This document shows positions 7,426-22,860 of a stretch of 64,000 nt of DNA, piece after piece (the first letter of the stretch is position 1; every line of letters starts with the position of its first letter). The position numbers and the translations under genes are program-made. The notes under the pieces were generated by a model. That model was not told the origin of the DNA and made no database searches. It saw only the letters and a list, made by a program, of their open reading frames with translations. The stretch is from Nocardia sp. BMG111209 (lineage in GTDB: Bacteria > Actinomycetota > Actinomycetes > Mycobacteriales > Mycobacteriaceae): positions 682,001 to 746,000 of the forward strand of contig NZ_KB907309.1 of NCBI RefSeq assembly GCF_000381925.1, given 5' to 3'.

Positions 7426-7631
7426 ACATCCACCCTTCCAAAACATACCTCAGGTTTGTTTATTGACCAGAAACATACTTGACGCCTAAAGTTGGCGCCA
7501 GAAGCAGAGTCTCAGTCTTGATCGCTCGGGATCAAGTACTTCGGCTCGACAGGAGAAGAGCAGGGCAAATCCGGAGTCAATGAGGTTGAAACCCGCAGGT
7601 GCCCAGCGTTCGAGCACGGGAGATTGCCACG

Positions 7632-8927
7632 ATGGCCAAGAAGCCGCTCAAGCCACCCAGCGTCCCTCTGGGCGCCCGGCACAGTTTCTTCGCGTACATG
7701 CAGCGCCTGGTCATCGAGAACGGCGACATGTCGACCCCGCAGTTGGGCCGGCTGCTCGACTACTCACATCAGGCGGTCTACAAGGCTTTGACCGGGCCGC
7801 GGATGCCCAGTCACAGCATGGCCGCCGGTCTCGCGAGGGTGCTCGCGGGTGAACCTGCCGCCGCCGTGGCGCTGCGACTGTGGAGCGCGGGTGTCCAGGA
7901 GGAGCAGCGGGTGATCAGAGAGCGGGTTGCCGCACGCGGAAAGCCGGTCGGCTACGGCGCGAATATCGGTGTGGCCGTGAGTGCTTCGAGCGACAACACG
8001 TTCACGGACGGGCCGCACCGGACGGATCACGCGCTGCTGGCGGCGAAGTCACGCCGCGGCAGCCGAGTCGTGGTCTCGAACGACGTGGTGCGTCCGGATT
8101 TCGAGCCGGACGATCTGCGCCGCGCGGTCGCCGACGGCTCGCTGGTGCTGCATTACCAGCCCGAGGTGGATCTGCGCACCGGCACGATCCGTGCGCTGGA
8201 GGCGCTGGTGCGCTGGCAGCACCCGACGCGCGGGCTGCTGCCGCCGGGCGCGTTCCTGCAGGTCGCCGAGGCCACCAATCTGGCCGGTGAACTCGGGCGA
8301 TGGGTGATCCGCACTGCCTGCGCCCAGTTGGCGCAGTGGCGACGGTGTGGGCTGGCGTCGAATGTGGTGCTGCGGATCAACGTCTCGCCGGTGCAGTTGG
8401 TCGCGCTCGACTTCGTGGAGAACATCGAGGATGTGCTGCGCAGGCACGGCATCGAGGGCAGCTCGATCTGCCTGGAGATCACCGAGCACGTGGTCGTGCA
8501 GGATCTGGATCGCACCTGCGCCACGCTGAACGGGCTGAAGGAGCTGGGCGTACAGATCGCCATCGACGACTTCGGTACGGGATACAGTTCGCTGTCCCAG
8601 CTGAAGGCGCTCCCGGTGGATGTCGTGAAGATCGACCGCAGCTTCGTGCAGCGGCTGGGCGCCGACCCGGACGACTTGCCGTTCGTCGAATTCATTGTGG
8701 GACTTGCCCATTCATTGGGGCTCCAGGTCGTCGGCGAGGGTGTGGAGACGACCGCCGCCGCACGCACCCTGGTCGGGCTGGGATGCTTTCGGGCACAAGG
8801 CTTTCTGATCGCACAGCCGATGCCCGCCGAGGCAGTGGAGCCCCATCTCATGGCCGGCCGGATCCCGCTGGACCTGAAGCTACCGGAAATATCGCAGGTG
8901 CCGAGCGCAATTCGACGCGGCGAATGA
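7632..8927 (+). CDS. HTH-EAL fusion: c-di-GMP phosphodiesterase with DNA-binding-like N-terminus
   Basis: A 431-residue cytoplasmic protein. Residues about 30-75 look like a Cro/lambda-repressor helix-turn-helix (STPQLGRLLDYSHQAVYKAL); a linker follows; residues about 155-410 are an EAL domain. All residues expected of an active phosphodiesterase are present: EAL at 190-192, Asn250 (RINVSP), Glu282 (LEITE), Asp312-Asp313 (DDFGTG), Lys333, Glu369 (GEGVE) and Gln389. It should cleave cyclic di-GMP to pGpG, and the HTH suggests DNA binding linked to the nucleotide. No GGDEF domain and no membrane segment are seen. Start at 7632 has a GGGAGA site; an upstream ATG-less extension is not needed. Confidence 0.87.
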   Translation: MAKKPLKPPSVPLGARHSFFAYMQRLVIENGDMSTPQLGRLLDYSHQAVYKALTGPRMPSHSMAAGLARVLAGEPAAAVALRLWSAGVQEEQRVIRERVAARGKPVGYGANIGVAVSASSDNTFTDGPHRTDHALLAAKSRRGSRVVVSNDVVRPDFEPDDLRRAVADGSLVLHYQPEVDLRTGTIRALEALVRWQHPTRGLLPPGAFLQVAEATNLAGELGRWVIRTACAQLAQWRRCGLASNVVLRINVSPVQLVALDFVENIEDVLRRHGIEGSSICLEITEHVVVQDLDRTCATLNGLKELGVQIAIDDFGTGYSSLSQLKALPVDVVKIDRSFVQRLGADPDDLPFVEFIVGLAHSLGLQVVGEGVETTAAARTLVGLGCFRAQGFLIAQPMPAEAVEPHLMAGRIPLDLKLPEISQVPSAIRRGE

Positions 8928-8992: not shown

Positions 8993-9198
8993 GGGTCGAG
9001 GCGGCACGCGTACCAACCAGACCGAGCCCGCACGCCTCCCGGCCGGACCGAGGCCGCCGCGTCCCAACCAGACCGAGGCCGCCGCGTCCCAACCAGACCG
9101 AGGCGGCACACGTCCCGACCAGACCGAGACGGCACGCCTCCCGACCAGACCAAGGCCGCACACGTCCCGACCGGACCGAGACGTCGCGCCTCCCGGCC
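8993..9198. repeat. minisatellite, eight units of 25-26 bp
   Basis: Eight head-to-tail units follow the EAL gene, of the form AGACCGAGRCGGCACGCCTC followed by CCGACC, with two units of 25 bp that are near-identical to each other (9045-9069 and 9070-9094). The mix of 25- and 26-bp units changes the reading frame, so this array is not under coding selection. It separates the EAL gene from the convergent holB. Confidence 0.85.
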
Positions 9199-9243: not shown

Positions 9244-10452
9244 TCAGGCGCCCCGTGCGGCGATCATGGTGGCGACCATGGCCGCGACCGCGAACCGGGG
9301 TTTCACGTTCTGGTCCAGGGCCTGACGGCAGGCGAGGACTGCTTCGATCGAGCGCAGCAGACCTTCGGGGCGGACCTCGGACGCCAGATCGCGGATCTGG
9401 TCCGGGAGGTCCGGATGGGTGAGGGTGACACCGCCGGCGGCGGGGGTGGTAGCGCGCAGGCGGACGGCGAGGGCATCCCGGTAGAGGCCGGCGACGTCGA
9501 TGAGCGCGCGGTCGAGTGCGTCGCGGCCGGTGCGGGTGGCCCGGGACTTCTGGCGACGTTCCAGATCCTTCAACGCGCCGGCCGATCCACGAGTGGCAGA
9601 CGCGGTGCCCTTACCGGTGCCGCCGGCGCCGAGAGCGGTGGCCAGTTCCTCGCGCTCGCGTTCGTCGCGGGTGGCGCTGACCTGTTTGGCCTCCTCATCC
9701 GCGGATTTGACCAGTTCGTCGGCGGCGGCATACGCGGCGCCGGGGCGAGCGGTGGCGGCGACCAGGGCCAGGGCGCGGGTGCGGCGGGTACGGGCTTCCG
9801 CATCGGTGGCGAGCCGGCGGGCCCGGCCGACGTGACCGCCGCTGACCGAGGCCGCCCAGGTGGCGGTCTCATCGTCGAGACCGTCGCGGTCGCGCAAAAC
9901 CTGAGCGATCGCCGGGACGGAAGGGGTGACCAGCGGAATGTGCCGGCAGCGCGAGCGCAGGGTCACCGAGATGTCCTCGGGATCGACCGAGGGGGCGCAG
10001 AGCAGGAACACCGTGCGCGCCGGTGGCTCCTCGACGACCTTCAGCAGCACGTTGCCGGCGGCCTCGGTGAGGCGGTCGGCATCCTCGACCAGCACCACCT
10101 GCCAGCGACCGGTACTGGGCCGCCGGGCGGCGACCTGCACGATCTCGCGCATCTCCTTGGTGCCGATGGACAAGCCCTCGGGGATGACCCGGCGGACATC
10201 ACCGTGGGTACCCGCCATGGTGGTGGTACAGGCATGGCAGCGCCCGCAGCCGGGGACGCCCGCGTCGGTGCACTGGAGGGCGGCGGCGAAACACAGGGCG
10301 GCGACGGACCGGCCCGAACCGGGTGGGCCGGTGAACAACCAGGAATGGGTCATGGCCGACGACGACCCCCCGCTGCGCGCGGCGACCGCGGCAGCGGTCA
10401 GTTCGGACTCGACCGCATCCTGGCCGACCAGCCGATCGAAGACTCCCGCCAC
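9244..10452 (-). CDS. holB: DNA polymerase III subunit delta'
   Basis: A 402-residue clamp-loader AAA+ subunit. The start is the GTG at 10452 (VAGVFDRLVGQ), the usual beginning of actinobacterial delta'; longer frames upstream do not match. Walker A GPPGSGRS lies at about residues 42-49, the four zinc cysteines at about 61, 69, 72 and 75 (QCTDAGVPGCGRCHAC), and the sensor and DxD-like region in VVLVEDADRLTEAAGN. It loads the sliding clamp with the tau/gamma and delta subunits. An inserted charged segment (ATRDEREREELATALG, about residues 260-300) is longer than in E. coli but usual in this order. It has the same place and direction as Rv3644c. Confidence 0.93.
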   Translation of the reverse strand: MAGVFDRLVGQDAVESELTAAAVAARSGGSSSAMTHSWLFTGPPGSGRSVAALCFAAALQCTDAGVPGCGRCHACTTTMAGTHGDVRRVIPEGLSIGTKEMREIVQVAARRPSTGRWQVVLVEDADRLTEAAGNVLLKVVEEPPARTVFLLCAPSVDPEDISVTLRSRCRHIPLVTPSVPAIAQVLRDRDGLDDETATWAASVSGGHVGRARRLATDAEARTRRTRALALVAATARPGAAYAAADELVKSADEEAKQVSATRDEREREELATALGAGGTGKGTASATRGSAGALKDLERRQKSRATRTGRDALDRALIDVAGLYRDALAVRLRATTPAAGGVTLTHPDLPDQIRDLASEVRPEGLLRSIEAVLACRQALDQNVKPRFAVAAMVATMIAARGA

Positions 10453-10687
10453 GACGTACACCCTAACGGCCGGCACCGACAGCGAACTTTCACCGTCCGC
10501 CCCGGCGCCACCACGACCCACCGCCACCGCGACGAGGATCACATCCGGAATACTCGCAAACTTCGCAAACCAGCCCACCGTTCCGTGAACCATGTTGCGG
10601 CCGTGGCTGTTCGAACGCCGAACGATCACGCGTCGAAAAGCCGCCGATCCCAGCTCGTTTCGAGCGCGACGACGCCGATTTCCGCCG

Positions 10688-11304: not shown

Positions 11305-14247
<2,943 letters not shown>

Positions 14248-14724: not shown

Positions 14725-15160
14725 TCTGTTCCTTCTCTTTCCATACCGGAACGGCAGACTAGTTAGGTTCGTCCACCGGGCCCGTTCCGACCGCTGTACT
14801 CTGTTCCCCCTGCAGGAAGCATCAAGCACACCGTTCGCAACATCGATCCTGCTGATGGTGTTGGACTTTGGATCCGTTCCCTCGAACACAGAAGCTTGCG
14901 ACCAGGAACCAGTGAACCATGTCTCCGAGCAATTCAACAGTCGAGTTACCGACAATTTGCAAAAAAGATGATCTTGCGAATGCGCAGGTGAGGGCTCGAA
15001 TGCTCAAATCCGTACTTGAGGTAGGTTTGCTTCGCGATAACCGGGTTGGCGTCAGGCAATGGGGGTGTGATACAGATCGCTACTCTGTAGTGAAATGGCA
15101 GGTAGGGCACACACCACACACATGGTTCACAGTTCTTCAGCGTGTCGCGATCACGGTCGA
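14725..15160. other. divergent promoter region without genes
   Basis: A 436-bp interval of lower GC than its surroundings between cspA and the helicase gene. It should hold the long cspA leader and both promoters; the segment 14930-15080 is especially AT-rich (CAATTTGCAAAAAAGATGATC region). I see no convincing protein gene and no clear structured RNA. Confidence 0.6.
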
Positions 15161-17587
15161 ATGAACCCGACGCGCACGACACACGACACCACGCCGGAAA
15201 CGGCGCCCGGATACGGCCGCGCGTTGCTGAACCGTGTCCTGGCCGCCGTACCGGACGGCGAGGAACGACTCACCCATCTCGCCGAGCTTCCGGCACGATC
15301 CGCGCAGGTCACGGACTGGCCGGAGTGGGCGGCCCCGGAGGTGATCGCGGCATTCCGGGCGAACGGGGTGGTCACACCTTGGTCACACCAGGCCCGCACC
15401 GCCGAGCTCGCCGTTACCGGCCGGCACGTGGTGGTCAGTTCCGGCACCGCCTCCGGCAAATCACTGGGATATCAGCTGCCGGTTCTGACCGATCTGTATC
15501 GGGATCCGCAGGCCACAGCCCTGTATCTGGCGCCGACCAAAGCCCTCGGCGCCGATCAATTGCGCGCCGTCTCCGAACTCGTCCTCGACGGCCCGCTACG
15601 CGACGTCCGGCCCGCCTCCTACGACGGCGACACACCCGCCGAAGTGCGGCAATGGGTGCGCGCGAATGCCCGGTGGATCTTCACCAATCCCGACATGTTG
15701 CATCTGGGCATTCTGCGATCGCATCAGCGCTGGGCGCGGGTACTGCGCCGGCTGCGCTATGTCGTGGTCGACGAATGTCACGCCTACCGAGGTGTATTCG
15801 GATCGAACGTCGCATTGGTGCTGCGCCGGTTACGGCGGCTGGCCGCGCATTACGGCGCCGACCCGGTCTTCGTGTTGTGCTCGGCCACCACGGCCGAACC
15901 CGCGGCCGCGGCGAGTGAATTGATCGGCGCGCGGTGTATCGCGGTGACCGAGGACGGCTCCCCCACCGGGGCGCGCACGGTCGCGTTGTGGGAACCGCCT
16001 CTGCTGCCCGTGATCAGCGGCGAGAACGGCGCCCCGGTGCGGCGACCGGCCGCCTCGGAGGCGGCCCGGATCATGACCGACCTGGTGGCCGAGGGTGCGC
16101 GCACCCTGACCTTCGTCCGGTCCCGCCGGGCCGCCGAGACGGTCGCGATCGACACCCGCCGCCTGCTCGGCGAGATCGACCCGGAACTGCGCGACCGGGT
16201 GGCCGCTTACCGGGCCGGATACCTCGCCGACGACCGGCGCGAACTGGAGTCGGCCCTCAATGACGGCACTCTGCTCGGCGTCGCCACCACCACCGCGCTG
16301 GAGCTGGGTGTGGACATCGCCGGGCTGGACGCGGTGGTCATCGCGGGCTTCCCCGGGACGGTGGCCTCGTTCTGGCAGCAGGCCGGGCGCGCGGGCCGGC
16401 GTACCCAGGGCTCGCTGGTGGTGCTGGTGGCCCGCGACGACCCGCTGGACACCTATCTGATCCACCATCCCCAGGCCCTGCTCGGCCGGCCCGTGGAAGC
16501 CACGATCACCGACCCCCGCAATCCGTACGTACTGGGTCCGCACCTGGTCTGCGCGGCGCTGGAGCAGCCGCTGACCGATCTCGAGGTCGCCGAACTCGGC
16601 GCCACCGAACTGGCCGCGGACCTGGCCGCCGAGGGGCTGATCCGGCGCCGGACCGGCGGCCGCGGACCGGCCCGGTGGTACGCGACCACCACCGAACAAC
16701 CGCACGATGCCGTCGATGTGCGCGGCGGTATCGGCACCCAGATCGCCATCGTCGACGAGGAGACCGGGCGCCTGCTCGGCACCGCCGACGCGGGCCGCGC
16801 CCCCGCCACCCTGCACCCCGGCGCGGTCCACCTGCACCAGGGCGAGACCTATGTGGTCGATGACCTGGACCTGGAGGCGGGCGTCGCCTTCGTGCACGCC
16901 GACCAGCCCGGCTGGACCACCAGCCCGCGCACGGTGACATCCATCGGAATCGTCGACGTGACCACCGAACACCGATTCGGCGAGGTCACCGCCGCGCTGG
17001 CGCGGGTGCACGTGTCCCGTCAGGTGGTCGCCTACCTCCGTACCCTGTCCACCGGCGAGGTGCTGGACCTCGTGGAACTCGAGCTGCCGGAACAGCGGCT
17101 GCCCACCCGCGCCGTGCTGTACACGGTCACGCCGAGCCTGCTGGCCCGCGCCGGGCTCGACGCCCGCCGGCTGCCCGGCGCCCTGCACGCGGCCGAACAT
17201 GCCGCGATCGGCATGCTGCCGCTGGTCGCGAGCTGCGACCGCTGGGATATCGGCGGCGTGTCGACCGCGGAACACCCCGACACCGGCCTGCCCACCGTCT
17301 TCGTCTACGACGGCCACGCGGGTGGCGCCGGCTTCGCCGAACGCGGCTTCGCCGAGCTCCGCACCTGGCTGACCGCGACACTCGAGGCCATCGAGTCCTG
17401 CGGCTGCCCGAGCGGCTGCCCGTCCTGCGTGCAGTCGCCGAAGTGCGGCAACGGCAACCATCCGCTGGACAAGGAGGGCGCCGCGGCCCTGCTGACCGCC
17501 GTCCTCGCCGAGCTCCGCGCGGGTGCGAACCCACCCGAGGAACCAGGCGGCCAGTCGTCGGATGACGGCGACACTGTTCAACCGTGA
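15161..17587 (+). CDS. MrfA/Hrq1-type DEAD/DEAH-box helicase with DUF1998 zinc domain
   Basis: An 808-residue superfamily 2 helicase. Motif I SSGTASGKS is at about residues 93-101, motif II DECH near 206 (VVDECHAYRG), motif III CSATT, and motifs V-VI ALELGVDIAGLDAV and QQAGRAGRR. The C-terminal DUF1998 region carries the cysteine cluster CGCPSGCPSC...CGNGNHPLDK. This architecture is that of Bacillus MrfA and yeast Hrq1, 3'-to-5' helicases for repair of mitomycin-type and crosslink damage. Orthologous in position to Rv3649. The start at 15161 (MNPTRT) avoids an upstream non-family extension. Confidence 0.92.
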   Translation: MNPTRTTHDTTPETAPGYGRALLNRVLAAVPDGEERLTHLAELPARSAQVTDWPEWAAPEVIAAFRANGVVTPWSHQARTAELAVTGRHVVVSSGTASGKSLGYQLPVLTDLYRDPQATALYLAPTKALGADQLRAVSELVLDGPLRDVRPASYDGDTPAEVRQWVRANARWIFTNPDMLHLGILRSHQRWARVLRRLRYVVVDECHAYRGVFGSNVALVLRRLRRLAAHYGADPVFVLCSATTAEPAAAASELIGARCIAVTEDGSPTGARTVALWEPPLLPVISGENGAPVRRPAASEAARIMTDLVAEGARTLTFVRSRRAAETVAIDTRRLLGEIDPELRDRVAAYRAGYLADDRRELESALNDGTLLGVATTTALELGVDIAGLDAVVIAGFPGTVASFWQQAGRAGRRTQGSLVVLVARDDPLDTYLIHHPQALLGRPVEATITDPRNPYVLGPHLVCAALEQPLTDLEVAELGATELAADLAAEGLIRRRTGGRGPARWYATTTEQPHDAVDVRGGIGTQIAIVDEETGRLLGTADAGRAPATLHPGAVHLHQGETYVVDDLDLEAGVAFVHADQPGWTTSPRTVTSIGIVDVTTEHRFGEVTAALARVHVSRQVVAYLRTLSTGEVLDLVELELPEQRLPTRAVLYTVTPSLLARAGLDARRLPGALHAAEHAAIGMLPLVASCDRWDIGGVSTAEHPDTGLPTVFVYDGHAGGAGFAERGFAELRTWLTATLEAIESCGCPSGCPSCVQSPKCGNGNHPLDKEGAAALLTAVLAELRAGANPPEEPGGQSSDDGDTVQP

Positions 17588-17897: not shown

Positions 17898-18317
17898 TCA
17901 TTCGGTTCCGTAAGGACTCGCCGGACCCGCACGCGCACTCGCCCGAACCCGACGTAATCCCAATGTCGCGAGTGAGACCTCCCTATCGACCGTGACGATC
18001 ACATCCCAATCCACGACCGAACACGCGCCGAGGCGAAATCCCGCGCGCCCGGCGATCACTCCGGCCCGCGCACACCCCGCCGCGATCCCCTCGTCCAATG
18101 CACCGGCACCCGCCAGCGCACTCAGATCGGCCGCCGACTGCGCCCGATGCCGCATCACCGCCACCACCCCGACCTGTCCGATCAGTCCGGTGATCGTCAG
18201 CAGCGCCAGCACCGCGAAGCACGCGGCCACGGTCGCCACCCCGTCCTCCGCCGCGATCCGCCGCCCGACGACCCCACGGATCCCCGCAACGCCCGCACCC
18301 CCACCCCCGGAACTCAT
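17898..18317 (-). CDS. TadE/TadG-like pilus-assembly protein (helicase/secretion-neighbourhood type)
   Basis: A 139-residue protein like Rv3654c. After a short glycine-rich start comes EDGVATVAACFAVLALLTITGL, a type-IV pilin-like cleavage region followed by a membrane helix, then MRHRAQSAADLSALAGAGAL, the TadE/TadG signature. It is the last gene of the leftward tad operon. Its ATG (18315-18317) overlaps the TGA of the upstream repeat frame as ATGA. Probably a minor pilin or assembly protein in the cytoplasmic membrane. Confidence 0.82.
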   Translation of the reverse strand: MSSGGGGAGVAGIRGVVGRRIAAEDGVATVAACFAVLALLTITGLIGQVGVVAVMRHRAQSAADLSALAGAGALDEGIAAGCARAGVIAGRAGFRLGACSVVDWDVIVTVDREVSLATLGLRRVRASARAGPASPYGTE

Positions 18318-18880
18318 GAAGCCATGCCCCGAGCTCTGCTCACGCCCCAACTCCGGTCCCACCGGCTGCCGACTTCACACCGGTCCCACCAACTCACAAG
18401 TTCACTCCGATCCAGCCGACTCGAGACTTCACCACGGTCCCGCCGACTCCTGAGTTCACTTCGGTGTGACCGACTCACGACGCCACCCCTGCGCGGCCGA
18501 CTCAGAACGCCCCTCCACGCCAGCCATCTCAGAACGTCTCTTCGGCCCAGCTGATCCACGAAGTCACTCCAACGCGGCCGACGCACAACGCCGCTCCAGC
18601 CTGGCCAGCTCACGACGCCACTCCTGCCCAGCCCGTTCACGACGCCACTCCAACGCGGCCCGTTCACGACGTCGCTCCAACGCGGCCGACACACAACGCC
18701 GCTCCAGCCCACCCGACTCACGACGCCGCTCCAGCCCACCCGACTCACGACGCCGCTCCTGTGTGGCCGGCTCGGGATGCATCTCCAGTACGGCCGATTC
18801 GCGACGTCAGCCCGTCCCGCCGACTCGTGAAGCCGCTGCGGCCCCCTGAGCCATGGCGCCACCTTGATCCGCCGACTCAT
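18314..18880 (-). CDS. repeat-only open frame of 9-residue units, coupled to both tad neighbours
   Basis: A 188-residue frame made almost wholly of 9-residue repeats, for example SGVVSRVGW, SGVVSRVGW, SGVVCRPRW, SDVVNGPRW, SGVVNGLGR. It is rich in Trp, Arg and Val with no membrane helix or signal peptide and no recognised domain. What makes it noteworthy is that its ATG (18878-18880) overlaps the stop of the upstream TadE-like gene as ATGA, and its own TGA overlaps the ATG of the downstream TadE-like gene as ATGA. The 27-bp unit keeps all frames open, so an unselected frame could arise. Translation is therefore possible but unproved; it may be only a translational bridge. Confidence 0.4.
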   Translation of the reverse strand: MSRRIKVAPWLRGPQRLHESAGRADVANRPYWRCIPSRPHRSGVVSRVGWSGVVSRVGWSGVVCRPRWSDVVNGPRWSGVVNGLGRSGVVSWPGWSGVVRRPRWSDFVDQLGRRDVLRWLAWRGVLSRPRRGGVVSRSHRSELRSRRDRGEVSSRLDRSELVSWWDRCEVGSRWDRSWGVSRARGMAS

Positions 18881-18893
18881 GGCGCCACCCCGG
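18354..18893. repeat. minisatellite of about 20 units of 27 bp
   Basis: Direct head-to-tail units of 27 bp (two of 26), consensus roughly CAGCCCGGCCGACTCACGAC followed by GCCGCTC. Two neighbouring units (about 18705-18758) are identical. The array fills the whole space between two TadE-like genes and runs into the 3' end of the upstream one, whose stop codon is in a unit. Divergence is greatest at both ends and least in the middle, as in arrays that expand from the centre. Confidence 0.9.
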
Positions 18894-19514: not shown

Positions 19515-19727
19515 TCAGGGGGTGGCGTTCAGGGCTCGGTCGATGATCTTGGTCAAGGCGTTCACAATGTTGTCGCCGGTGACGACGGTGTAGAGCACCG
19601 CGCCGAAGGCCGCGGCTGCGATCGTGCCTATCGCGTACTCGACCGTACTCATGCCGGCATCGTCGACCAATGCCAGCGTCAGGCGAATCCGCAAGGTGCG
19701 CAACGCCCCTCGAACCGTCGATCGCAT
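19515..19727 (-). CDS. DUF4244 Flp-pilin-like protein
   Basis: A 70-residue small protein corresponding to Rv3656c. It has a basic N-terminus, then AGMSTVEYAIGTIAAAAFGAVLYTVVTG: the GMSTVEYAIG sequence with Glu at +5 of the likely cleavage site and one hydrophobic helix, as in Flp major pilins. It is probably the structural subunit of the tad apparatus. Unlike its neighbours it is not overlapped and has its own strong AGGAGAG ribosome site, which fits a need for more copies. Confidence 0.85.
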   Translation of the reverse strand: MRSTVRGALRTLRIRLTLALVDDAGMSTVEYAIGTIAAAAFGAVLYTVVTGDNIVNALTKIIDRALNATP

Positions 19728-19784: not shown

Positions 19785-20381
19785 TCACGGCAACCCACCA
19801 CCCAGCACCCGGTCGGCCAGACCGATCACCACAGGCACGATGCCGAGGCATACGAAGGCCGGTAGGAAGCACAGCCCGAGTGGTCCGGCGACCAGCGTGC
19901 CCGCGCGGGCAGCCCGCGCGGTGGCCGCGTCGGTGACCCCCGCGCGACAGCGCTGCGCCACCTCCGCGACCGCATCGGCGAGCGCCGCGCCGGAACGGGC
20001 CGACCGTCGCACCAGCCGGGCCAGTGTCCGCAATTCGTCGGAGCGGGCGTCGGCCGCGGCGCGCTCCCATGCGGCGACCGGGTCGGCGCCGAGCGCCAGC
20101 AGGTCGGCTGCACGCCGCAGCGATGGTGCCAGTGGACCCCCGGCCCCGGCAGCGACCGCGCGCGCAGCCGCCGCGATCGGCAGTCCTGCCCGCAGGCAGG
20201 CTGCCAGTAGATCGAATACCGCCGCTGCGGCCAACGGATCGGATTCGGTTGTCGGTCGCGAAATACTTTGTGCTGGAGTGACTTTCCCGATGAGTGCGTG
20301 CAGACGTCCGGCGGCAACGCCGCGATGCGGCAGTACCAGCAGAGTCGCGGCGAGCAGAGCCATCGACAGTGTGCCCGTCAT
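19785..20381 (-). CDS. tadC: type II secretion system F family protein (TadC-like)
   Basis: A 198-residue inner-membrane platform protein like Rv3657c. The T2SSF core is seen in AAAAVFDLLAACLRAGLPIAAA and ARLVRRSARSGAALADAVAEVA, and the C-terminus has a hydrophobic helix (LVAGPLGLCFLPAFVCLGIVPVVIGL). It works with TadB and the CpaF ATPase to move pilin subunits through the membrane. Its ATG (20379-20381) overlaps the tadB stop as ATGA. Confidence 0.88.
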   Translation of the reverse strand: MTGTLSMALLAATLLVLPHRGVAAGRLHALIGKVTPAQSISRPTTESDPLAAAAVFDLLAACLRAGLPIAAAARAVAAGAGGPLAPSLRRAADLLALGADPVAAWERAAADARSDELRTLARLVRRSARSGAALADAVAEVAQRCRAGVTDAATARAARAGTLVAGPLGLCFLPAFVCLGIVPVVIGLADRVLGGGLP

Positions 20382-21670
20382 CGCGACACCCGCTCGGTGA
20401 TCGCGTCGGTCCACCACACTCCCGCACAGGCCAGTGCGGTACCGAGCGGCAGCAGCACCGTTCCCGGACCTCGACCGAGCAACAGGCCGATCGGGTGGGC
20501 GCCCATCAACTCGCCGAGCGCGACCCCGAGCAGGGGCAGGCCCGAGAGCACGAGTGCTGTGGCACGGGCACCGGCCAGCCCAGCGGTGGCGCTCTCCCGG
20601 AACCGCATTCGGCCGGACAGATCGGTCCGGGCCGCGGCCAGCAGCTCGACGAGTGCGAGTCCGTGCTGCTCGGCCAACCGCCACGCCGTCGCGATCCGAG
20701 CCAGCTCGTCCTGGAGAACCGTTCCGGGAGAGCACAAACCGTCCGCCACCGAACCACCCAGGCGACCGCGCGCGGCGCCGACCGTCAGTGCCCGGCCCGC
20801 AGTTCCAGTCAGATCGGAGGCGGCGCTGGCGGCAGCAGCACTGGGATGAGCGCCCACCCGCAACTCGCCGATCACCGCCTCCAACCCCTCTGCCAGCGCA
20901 CGACACTCGCGGTCGTGCTCTTGCTTGCTCCTGCCTCGTCGGATCCGGACACCAGCCGTGACCGCGACCAGGCACACCGCGATCAAGACGCCGATGCCCG
21001 CGAACGCCGCGACTGTCGGCACCACCAAGACGCAGGCTCGAAACAACAACCGGGAAGGGACTTTTCGCTCCGGCCGACGTGACACGAGCAGGACCGACAA
21101 CCGTCTACGTGACCGGGCTCCCGGCCACGCCAGCAATGCGACGGCGCAGAAGACGAGCGTCCACGGCCGCGGTCCGCAACCGGTGAGCCCGGCAGTCCAG
21201 ACCGGCAATGCGATGGGCGAGCCGACATTCGACCACATCCGGACGTCGAACTCGGCTCGTCCAACCGTCCAGCGAACCGAAACAGACGGTGCTGCAACGA
21301 AAGCCGCTGACTTCCGACTGCGTGCCGACATCAGATTGCGTGCCGACTTCTGACTGTGCGCCGATGCCATTCCGGCGAGAGTCCGCACCACAGACACCGG
21401 ACGAAGGCGCAGGACCGGCTTCTCGTCACGCCCTATGAGCCACGCGCCTCGCGACATCGGCACAGACACCGCGCGACCCGGCATCGAGCGCTTCCGGATG
21501 GATCGACCAAGCGCAGTGCTTCCGCTCCGCCGGGCATCGGCCCCGCACAGTGTCACTCCAGCCTTCGAGTCGCCGCCGGAGTGGTCGGTGGTGTGATCAC
21601 GAAACGACACTGTCCCGTTGACGAACGACGGCGTCTGGTGCTCGCACCCGATATGGGCGGGTGTGGTCAT
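20378..21670 (-). CDS. tadB: type II secretion system F family protein (TadB-like) with an unusual N-terminal extension
   Basis: Read from the ATG at 21670, which overlaps the cpaF stop as ATGA, this is a 430-residue protein. Its last ~285 residues are TadB-like (Rv3658c): hydrophobic WTLVFCAVALLAWPG, ACVLVVPTVAAFAGIGVLIA, then the T2SSF domain with SAAAASAASDLTG and WRLAEQHGLALVELLAAAR, and two final helices. The first ~144 residues are not TadB-like: they are polar, Arg/Ser-rich and contain 6-residue repeats coded by 18-bp units. A start at 21238 (MWSNVGSP) would give the normal family length. Coupling favours the long form; family length favours the short one. Confidence 0.75.
   Translation of the reverse strand: MTTPAHIGCEHQTPSFVNGTVSFRDHTTDHSGGDSKAGVTLCGADARRSGSTALGRSIRKRSMPGRAVSVPMSRGAWLIGRDEKPVLRLRPVSVVRTLAGMASAHSQKSARNLMSARSRKSAAFVAAPSVSVRWTVGRAEFDVRMWSNVGSPIALPVWTAGLTGCGPRPWTLVFCAVALLAWPGARSRRRLSVLLVSRRPERKVPSRLLFRACVLVVPTVAAFAGIGVLIAVCLVAVTAGVRIRRGRSKQEHDRECRALAEGLEAVIGELRVGAHPSAAAASAASDLTGTAGRALTVGAARGRLGGSVADGLCSPGTVLQDELARIATAWRLAEQHGLALVELLAAARTDLSGRMRFRESATAGLAGARATALVLSGLPLLGVALGELMGAHPIGLLLGRGPGTVLLPLGTALACAGVWWTDAITERVSR
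21307..21360. repeat. three 18-bp direct repeats within the tadB extension
   Basis: Units GACTGCGTGCCGACATCA, GATTGCGTGCCGACTTCT and GACTGTGCGCCGATGCCA lie head to tail. They code 6-residue units around SARSRK in the N-terminal extension. With the 27-bp array they show that short in-frame repeats have expanded more than once in this operon. Confidence 0.7.
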
Positions 21671-22860
21671 GCCGAGGCTCCCAGCCGCTCGTCGAGGAGG
21701 CGGTGCAGTGCTGGGGCGGCGGGGGTGGGAGCGGCGTCGGAACGCCAGGCGGCTTCGATGGTGACGGTACCGTCGGGGCCACGGGTGACGAGTCCTACCT
21801 CACGGAGAGCGCGGGAGCCGTCGGCCCGGCGGTGCATGTGCAGGATCACCTGAACCGCGGCGGCGAGCTGGCTGTGCAGGGCGTCGCGGCCCATACCGCC
21901 CAGTGCCGCAAGGGCTTCCAGGCGAGCAGGGACCTCTCGCGGCGAGTTGGCGTGCACCGTACCGGCGCCGCCGTCGTGGCCGGTGTTCAGCGCGGTCAGC
22001 AGGTCTACGACCTCGGCGCCGCGAACCTCCCCGATGACGATGCGGTCGGGACGCATACGGAGTGCCTGACGGACCAGGTCGCGGACCGTAACAGTGCCTG
22101 CACCTTCGACATTCGCGGTGCGGGACACCAGCCGGATGACATGCGGATGGGGTGGGGCGAGTTCGGCGGCATCCTCGACGCAGACGATACGTTCGGCATC
22201 GTCGACCTCGGCAAGCAAGCCGGCCAGCAGGGTTGTCTTGCCCGCCCCGGTGCCGCCCACCACCAGGAAAGCCAGGCGCGCGCGAATGATGTGCTCCAGC
22301 AACACTTTCGCGGTGGCGGGGATGGTTCCGCCCGCGGCGAGGGAGGTGAGGTCGTGTGCGGCGGGGCGCAGCACGCGCAGGGAGACGCAGGTGCCGCCGT
22401 GGGCGATCGGGGCCAGGATCGCGTGCAGGCGCACGCCGAACGAATCACCCAGTGCGCCTTCGAGTTCCGGCAGGCGGCCGTCGACCCACGGCTGCGCGTC
22501 GTCGAGGCGGCGGCCGGCGGCCAGTGCGAGACGTTGCGCCAGACGGCGTACGGCGGCCTCGTCGGGGAATGTGATCGATGTGCGATGCAGGCCGTGTCCT
22601 CGGTCCACCCACACCGCATCGGGTGCGGTGACCAGGACGTCGGATACCTGCGGATCGTGCAGCAACGGTTCGAGGACGCCGGCTCCGGTCATCTCGGTCT
22701 GCAGCAGGCGCAGGGCGCGCAGCAGGTCGGTGTCGCCCAGTACACCGGCGGATTCGGCGCGGATCGCGGCGGCCAGCCGGGCCGGATCCGGACCGGCATG
22801 CTCGCCTGCCAGGCGTTCGCGAACCCGTTCCAGCAGTTCCGGAGTGACGAGGGTGGTCAT
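21667..22860 (-). CDS. cpaF: CpaF/TadA family pilus-assembly ATPase
   Basis: A 397-residue secretion ATPase like Rv3659c. It has Walker [10 protein letters not shown], the Asp box [10 protein letters not shown], Walker [17 protein letters not shown] and the His box [14 protein letters not shown]. It powers assembly or secretion of the Flp pilus from the cytoplasmic face. Its ATG at 22860 overlaps the stop of the ssd gene as ATGA. Confidence 0.94.

Follow-up and report, generated by a model that had tools for sequence, protein, structure and literature searches.

What is a tandem repeat that reads as an open frame doing on the boundary between two genes of a pilus operon? The question is raised by a window of 64,000 nucleotides (the whole stretch of DNA analysed here), which is part of the 9.14-Mb genome of Nocardia sp. 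BMG111209. The original prediction, made from the letters of the window, described a 27-bp array forming a repeat-only frame coupled to both of its neighbours, and it proposed three readings: a real Trp/Arg-rich repeat protein of the pilus system, a length-variable coupling element with phase-variation-like behaviour, or a neutral expansion. On the minus strand, the genes follow the order TadA, TadB, TadC, DUF4244, TadE (Rv3655c type), repeat ORF, and Rv3654c-type protein. The relevant features, in window coordinates, are the following:

15095..17587, plus strand: DEAH helicase (TIGR03817), beyond the Rv3654c-type gene
17898..18317, minus strand: Rv3654c family TadE-like protein (TIGR03816, 96.8 bits against a cut-off of 50.95)
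18302..18893, minus strand: 27-bp minisatellite (TRF period and wraparound alignment)
18314..18317, minus strand: ATGA overlap of the repeat-ORF stop and the Rv3654c-type start
18314..18880, minus strand: repeat ORF of 188 codons with an ATGA overlap at each end, putatively translated
18877..18880, minus strand: ATGA overlap of the tadE stop and the repeat-ORF start
18877..~19257, minus strand: TadE family type IV pilus minor pilin, Rv3655c type (NF041390, 110.1 bits against a cut-off of 40; start codon approximate)
19515..19727, minus strand: DUF4244 protein
~19785..20381, minus strand: TadC, T2SSF-type
20378..21670, minus strand: TadB with a long N-terminal extension, its core starting near 21148
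21305..21364, minus strand: 18-bp repeat, 3.3 copies, inside the TadB N-terminal extension (TRF)
21667..21670, minus strand: ATGA overlap of tadA and tadB, the second lengthened joint of the operon
21667..22860, minus strand: TadA family ATPase (TIGR03819)

The grouping of the DEAH helicase with Rv3654c- and Rv3655c-type, DUF4244, T2SSF-type and TadA genes is that of a Tad/Flp pilus operon. Both neighbours of the array score above curated family cut-offs (NF041390 for Rv3655c, TIGR03816 for Rv3654c), and the TadE of Nocardia aurantia RB56 (L151) is 84% identical to that of the window. In Mycobacterium tuberculosis, the available portion of one source describes Rv3654c and Rv3655c as secreted proteins (PMC2864267).

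The array has a period of 27 bp in TRF, and a wraparound alignment places its units from 18893 down to about 18302. Together with the two family matches, these results bear out the description of a 27-bp array between two TadE-like genes. It does sit at the Rv3655c/Rv3654c joint, but not exactly between the genes, as its first unit begins within the 3' end of tadE. The minus-strand frame of 188 residues is there as well, with ATGA overlaps at 18880-18877 and 18317-18314. Both ATGAs occupy one and the same column of the unit (in the units at 18891 and 18328), a column that holds ATGA or GTGA in 10 of the 22 full units. They lie 21 unit steps apart, 17 measuring 27 nt and 4 measuring 26 nt, arranged from the first ATGA to the second as three of 26 nt, seventeen of 27 and one of 26. 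These steps sum to 563 nt, which is 2 mod 3 given the four 26-nt units among the 27-nt ones, and hence the 188-residue ORF.

We compared this joint across the genus using 150 genomes, one per species and many of them draft; where short reads were assembled, the number of repeat units may be in error. TadE was present in 149 of them, and both genes were found in 147 of the 149 loci; the two loci where the second gene was missing (L047 and L150) were dropped. In one genus genome that is 99% complete (G134), the TadE and TadB queries had no match at E <= 0.001, and the pilus operon may have been lost. At another locus (L115, genome G070), the match to the Rv3654c-type domain begins only at position 41 of the model, which would fit a gene that is disrupted or diverged at its start. 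The spacer, taken as the distance between the tadE stop and the point where the conserved Rv3654c domain begins, ranges from -17 to 1145 nt across the 147 same-genus loci. At the tadE stop, 142 of these loci have an overlap of the form RTGA (R being A or G), and it opens the Rv3654c frame in 128 of the 147. Tandem repeats detected by TRF, which differ in period and sequence, occur in 20 of the 77 spacers of at least 60 nt, and six begin within the 3' end of tadE; the other 57 spacers lack a TRF repeat. Shine-Dalgarno-like 4-mers precede the RTGA start by 5-13 nt in 46% of the 142 loci; for a site lying 21 nt farther upstream, the figure is 2%. The conserved end codons of tadE may cause this enrichment.

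Two observations concern other genera. In Tsukamurella (L157, L158, L159, L163, L165, L179, L190 and L197), the tadE/Rv3654c spacer measures 41-128 nt, always 2 mod 3 and with RTGA. The 55 loci of mycobacteria and their kin have a spacer of -2 or +1, in another frame; nine Rhodococcus/Prescottella loci were dropped, since the Rv3654c model matched the tadE ORF itself (values -330/-333).

Most long spacers in Nocardia keep a frame open. Across the 56 spacers of at least 100 nt, the Rv3654c frame contains 18 stops in 5711 codons, against 92 in 5700 and 112 in 5706 in the other forward frames; 49 spacers are free of stops in the Rv3654c frame, against 19 and 17 in the others, and the window is among the 7 exceptions. 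We then applied a path rule, in which reading goes on from the RTGA, with restarts permitted only at RTGA, until the Rv3654c domain is reached in frame. An unbroken path leads into the Rv3654c gene in 51 of the 56 spacers: 43 are direct extensions and 8, including the window, are chains of extra ORFs with 1-5 restarts. Dinucleotide shuffles of the same spacers gave a mean of 18.3 open paths and a maximum of 25 in 200 rounds. Among the 13 non-direct spacers, 8 succeed where 1.26 are expected (maximum of 5 in 1000 rounds). Species that are related do not count as independent samples, and shuffling destroys repeats, two points answered in part by counting a single spacer for each similarity cluster (29.5 of 33 open against 10.7 shuffled, maximum 18) and by entering the real spacers 1 or 2 nt later (20 and 12 of 56 open). 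The five failures comprise three spacers with a right-frame start 4-13 nt before the stop, one with an ATG directly after it and one without a nearby start. The genus comparison hence agrees with the proposed length-variable coupling element, as length varies hugely while the RTGA and the continuous path mostly persist; the loss of overlap or frame in relatives, which would have spoken against coupling, is limited to a few loci (RTGA is kept in 142 of 147, and the path in 51 of 56 long spacers).

The length added to these 56 spacers is 0, 1 and 2 mod 3 in 45, 5 and 6 cases, respectively, phase 0 dominating, possibly owing to the position of the extension ahead of the first hydrophobic segment. 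At this joint, the first stop is an RTGA in 9 of 13 cases in the RTGA-opened frame and in 40 of 70 in other frames, with no significant difference (p 0.54), a result that speaks against a special role of the restart.

The peptide behaves differently from the frame. Between homologous spacers, compared in 18 species pairs, the rates of difference are 0.179, 0.201 and 0.190 at codon positions 1, 2 and 3. Eight pairs chosen for being open and in frame gave rates of 0.144/0.159/0.152 in the spacer, against 0.035/0.011/0.094 in tadE and 0.042/0.042/0.139 in the Rv3654c core of the same pairs. The amino-acid make-up of the extensions of other species is about that of unused frames. At the tadA/tadB joint, three pairs gave 0.085/0.068/0.069 in the spacer and 0.030/0.030/0.156 in tadA; a short control stretch of TadB (0.130/0.109/0.130) is also without a third-position excess. 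Long spacers seem to be kept readable and yet to drift at all codon positions, which suggests a constraint on translation that is separate from the peptide. With the path usually unbroken and the peptide drifting freely, the repeat looks like a filler that links translation, and not like a real repeat protein.

The best explanation, to which we give a probability of roughly 0.72, is a duplication of the gene junction that is tolerated while coupling survives, with the peptide as neutral filler. The overlaps, the genus-wide variation in length, the frame continuity above that of shuffled spacers and the equal rates at codon positions can be read from the sequences themselves. The process behind them would be a tandem copying of the junction, made of the last tadE codons, the RTGA and the first codons after it. 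Each duplicated unit would bring its own restart site, so that reading could pass on from tadE to the gene behind it without a break. An added length of 0 mod 3 would give an N-terminal extension of the downstream protein. With 2 mod 3, reading would meet the copied TGA, stop, and possibly restart on the overlapping RTG, making a new ORF bounded by an RTGA on each side; with 1 mod 3, the path would be broken. The window would combine both phases, having a 27-nt unit plus four 26-nt copies. Selection would act on unbroken translation, i.e., coupling, into the Rv3654c-type gene, and the peptide would be neutral filler. We infer that ribosomes terminate and restart at these joints and that selection acts against lost coupling; the repeat-free spacers of other species would be old, decayed duplications.

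An unlikely alternative is plain mutational expansion in a tolerant gap, without selection on coupling, where the open frame would be a by-product of stop-free units divisible by three. It would fit a neutral peptide, and also the fact that, once the repeat exists, the openness of the 188-residue frame in the window is not beyond chance (column permutation gave a mean of 1.57 stops and P = 0.14 for none). Junction duplications would, moreover, keep coupling mechanically in two of the three length phases, and only 27 of the 50 gaps in alignments of homologous spacers have a length divisible by three. However, the path is also intact in 33 of the 37 long spacers in which TRF detects no repeat, the stops number 18 against 92 and 112, and the length phases are far from uniform (64, 6 and 7 for 0, 1 and 2 mod 3 in the 77 spacers of at least 60 nt; p ~2e-19 with related species counted separately).

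To trace the ancestry of the unit, we built a profile of 17 interior units, in which the tadE stop/start site scores 16.99, and none of the other 63,377 positions on the minus strand of the window scores as high. The N. aurantia tadE junction reaches 12.29 against this profile, a value that again no position attains. In the window, the downstream junction scores weakly (3.92, a score equalled or exceeded at 35 positions), and in the other close relative (G110) the junction is unlike the unit (-1.69, with 349 positions as high). When the array is read in the tadE frame, the C-terminus and its stop recur, as GVAP, then GAAS, GATS and GVAS, each followed by a stop. A direct comparison of the window's two ATGA contexts gave 16 of 36 identical positions, below the 99% null level. 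A 27-mer search for junction copies reached p <= 0.01 in 4 of 77 spacers, the window not among them. Given the weakness of this search, the claim of ancestry for the window rests on the profile test and the tadE-frame reading: the unit likely descends from the tadE/Rv3654c stop/start junction, with the 20 nt from 18891 as the ancestor.

The original study of the mycobacterial interspersed repetitive units (MIRUs) reportedly dates from 1997. In the part of a later account available here, these are short, apparently mobile repeats found in many mycobacteria, which are inserted at start codons and carry an internal ORF coupled at -4 (PMC12548453). A dispersed element of this type, inserted at the coupled start codon, would give the same architecture as in the window, i.e., an intercistronic ORF with a -4 ATGA overlap (18317-18314) with the downstream start. 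We nevertheless regard such an insertion as quite improbable. MIRUs are dispersed, whereas the array was found by BLAST at a single locus of its 9.14-Mb genome, and the seven genomic sites of a 20-base unit pattern (at most 2 mismatches) are all inside the array. The unit resembles the local tadE junction above the 63,377 other positions, which is not what a foreign insertion would give, and one tadA/tadB spacer, searched in three genomes, occupies a single place in the two that have it. A dispersed element is hence unsupported. The MIRUs are nonetheless a close precedent, though dispersed, for an arrangement of which the original prediction knew no described example, as far as that portion of the account goes (PMC12548453).

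Finally, it is very improbable that the 188-residue ORF encodes a real pilus-associated or secreted Trp/Arg-rich repeat protein, in spite of its 188-codon open frame, its start and stop overlaps and its place within a pilus operon, because the 17 gapless units differ from their consensus by 28 synonymous and 86 non-synonymous changes where 34.5 synonymous ones are expected, heterozygosity at codon positions 1, 2 and 3 is 0.41, 0.30 and 0.34 with the third position not the most variable, none of 1509 candidate proteins is a homologue at E <= 0.001, and the extensions of other species resemble unused frames in amino acids and have equal rates at all codon positions. Judged from the window alone, there is no case for a selected protein, and the comparison of synonymous and non-synonymous changes that had been suggested for this purpose gave no synonymous excess. 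As for phase-variation-like behaviour, we found no evidence of it. Since 27 is a multiple of three, the gain or loss of a 27-nt unit would not switch the frame; 17 of the 21 unit steps are of this length, and only the 4 of 26 nt would shift it.

The tadA/tadB joint of the window is also lengthened, with a spacer of 521 nt that is in frame and open. We sampled this joint in Nocardia from the best 30 matches and the 60 subsequent ones by score, out of 146 genomes with a match (hence not at random), and two of the 90 loci were dropped (L301 and L304). In the 88 junctions of this sample, the spacer ranges from 20 to 953 nt, whereas all 65 non-Nocardia loci have 14-29 nt, a difference from other Tad/Flp operons. 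RTGA is present in 80 of the 88. Among the 46 spacers of at least 100 nt, the path is open in 30 (3 directly and 27 with extra ORFs), against a mean of 6.1 and a maximum of 12 in 100 rounds of shuffling. The other 16 fail the strict rule, and 6 of these lack an RTGA where tadA stops. The usual long form has one extra ORF with RTGA at each end, as at the tadE joint of the window, and its sequences are mostly unlike between species. The first stop is an RTGA in 30 of 34 cases in the RTGA-opened frame and in 27 of 51 in other frames (p 0.0008); stops are not rarer overall in the RTGA-opened frame at this joint (p 0.38). The added length is 0, 1 and 2 mod 3 in 9, 9 and 28 spacers, and this dominance of phase 2 leaves TadB's own start intact: a start 7 residues ahead of the core is kept in 20 of the 28 extra-ORF chains, and likewise in 26 of the 38 loci that are compact.

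The extra ORFs are slightly more like the genes flanking them than like those of other genomes. In 28 genomes, their tails match the tail of their own upstream gene at 9.7 of 20 nt against 8.6 when mispaired (p 0.0015), and their heads match the head of their own downstream gene at 6.7 of 17 nt against 5.9 (p 0.0125). For the extra ORFs of the tadE/Rv3654c joint, found in 8 genomes, the same comparisons of tails and heads gave p 0.028 and 0.003. One locus (L238) has four similar RTGA junctions, 110, 326 and 110 nt apart, and the best pair is identical at 32 of 36 flanking bases; these distances are 2 mod 3 because any such chain must be. By its sequence, this locus is a recent junction duplication seen directly. 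Junction copies reach the 99% level of unlinked RTGA sites, or exceed it, in only 16 of 41 extra-ORF chains.

The third joint, tadB/tadC, fits the model poorly. Its spacers range from 20 to 1059 nt in Nocardia (34 loci in 31 genomes, three of which were counted twice, as window/L231, L151/L232 and L160/L260, none being among the 19 long spacers). The other loci have 14-17 nt in 49 of 66 cases, and the rest -16 to 46 nt, with one at 430. The strict path is open in 6 of the 19 long spacers (shuffle mean 1.3, maximum 5), and the added lengths favour 1 mod 3 (13 of 19), a phase that the model does not predict. At several of these loci, the frame that the RTGA opens runs on without a stop deep into tadC, out of frame with that gene. 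We also measured two control joints outside the pilus operon, each in 26 of 30 Nocardia loci (the 30 best matches from 40 genomes drawn). In thrC/thrB, CTGA is found in all 26 loci and the length is constant in 25. In trpB/trpA (loci L331-L360), RTGA is found in 25 of 26 loci; the joint is compact in 20 and measures 70-165 nt in 6, so joints of genes other than those of the pilus may grow as well.

The window holds other repeats. A 26-bp tandem repeat of 7.2 copies (8997-9180) lies between the converging ORFs 7599..8927 (plus strand) and 9244..10629 (minus strand); its period is not a multiple of three and its site has no coupled joint. A cluster of imperfect 15- to 45-bp repeats occupies GC-rich DNA at 11326-11495.

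In-frame coding minisatellites exist in bacterial genes. The array of the window is like them in having a period that is a multiple of three and one stop-free frame, and it differs from them in being placed on a gene boundary, without sign of selection on the peptide. Termination-reinitiation coupling at ATGA/TGATG is treated in general terms in the accessible part of one source (PMC6728339). The overlap type at both ends of the repeat ORF is that of -4 (NTGA) coupled gene pairs, and coupling is predicted here on this basis (PMC6728339, PMC12548453, both in the portions available). In these portions, such overlaps are described for gene pairs, whereas in the window the overlap itself has been multiplied. 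The open-licence literature, in the excerpts covered, yielded nothing on coupling together with tandem repeats or duplication or on new genes arising by overlap duplication, and nothing on the subject for minisatellites or extensions in Nocardia.

We tentatively suggest, at somewhat less than even odds, that duplication of overlapping junctions is a general, self-coupling route to new ORFs and N-terminal extensions in operons, with Nocardia using it at several pilus joints. In one of the three length phases, the duplicate would immediately be a complete ORF with a restart site at each end, its head copied from the downstream gene and its tail from the upstream one. If ribosomes do pass through these spacers, this would be a concrete route for new ORFs inside operons, and the spacers would be natural test pieces for termination-reinitiation and for how many serial restarts are tolerated. 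The N-terminal extensions and hypothetical ORFs annotated at such joints in Nocardia should be viewed with caution, as they may be filler. If this is true, translated filler that is neutral in sequence could seed new genes.
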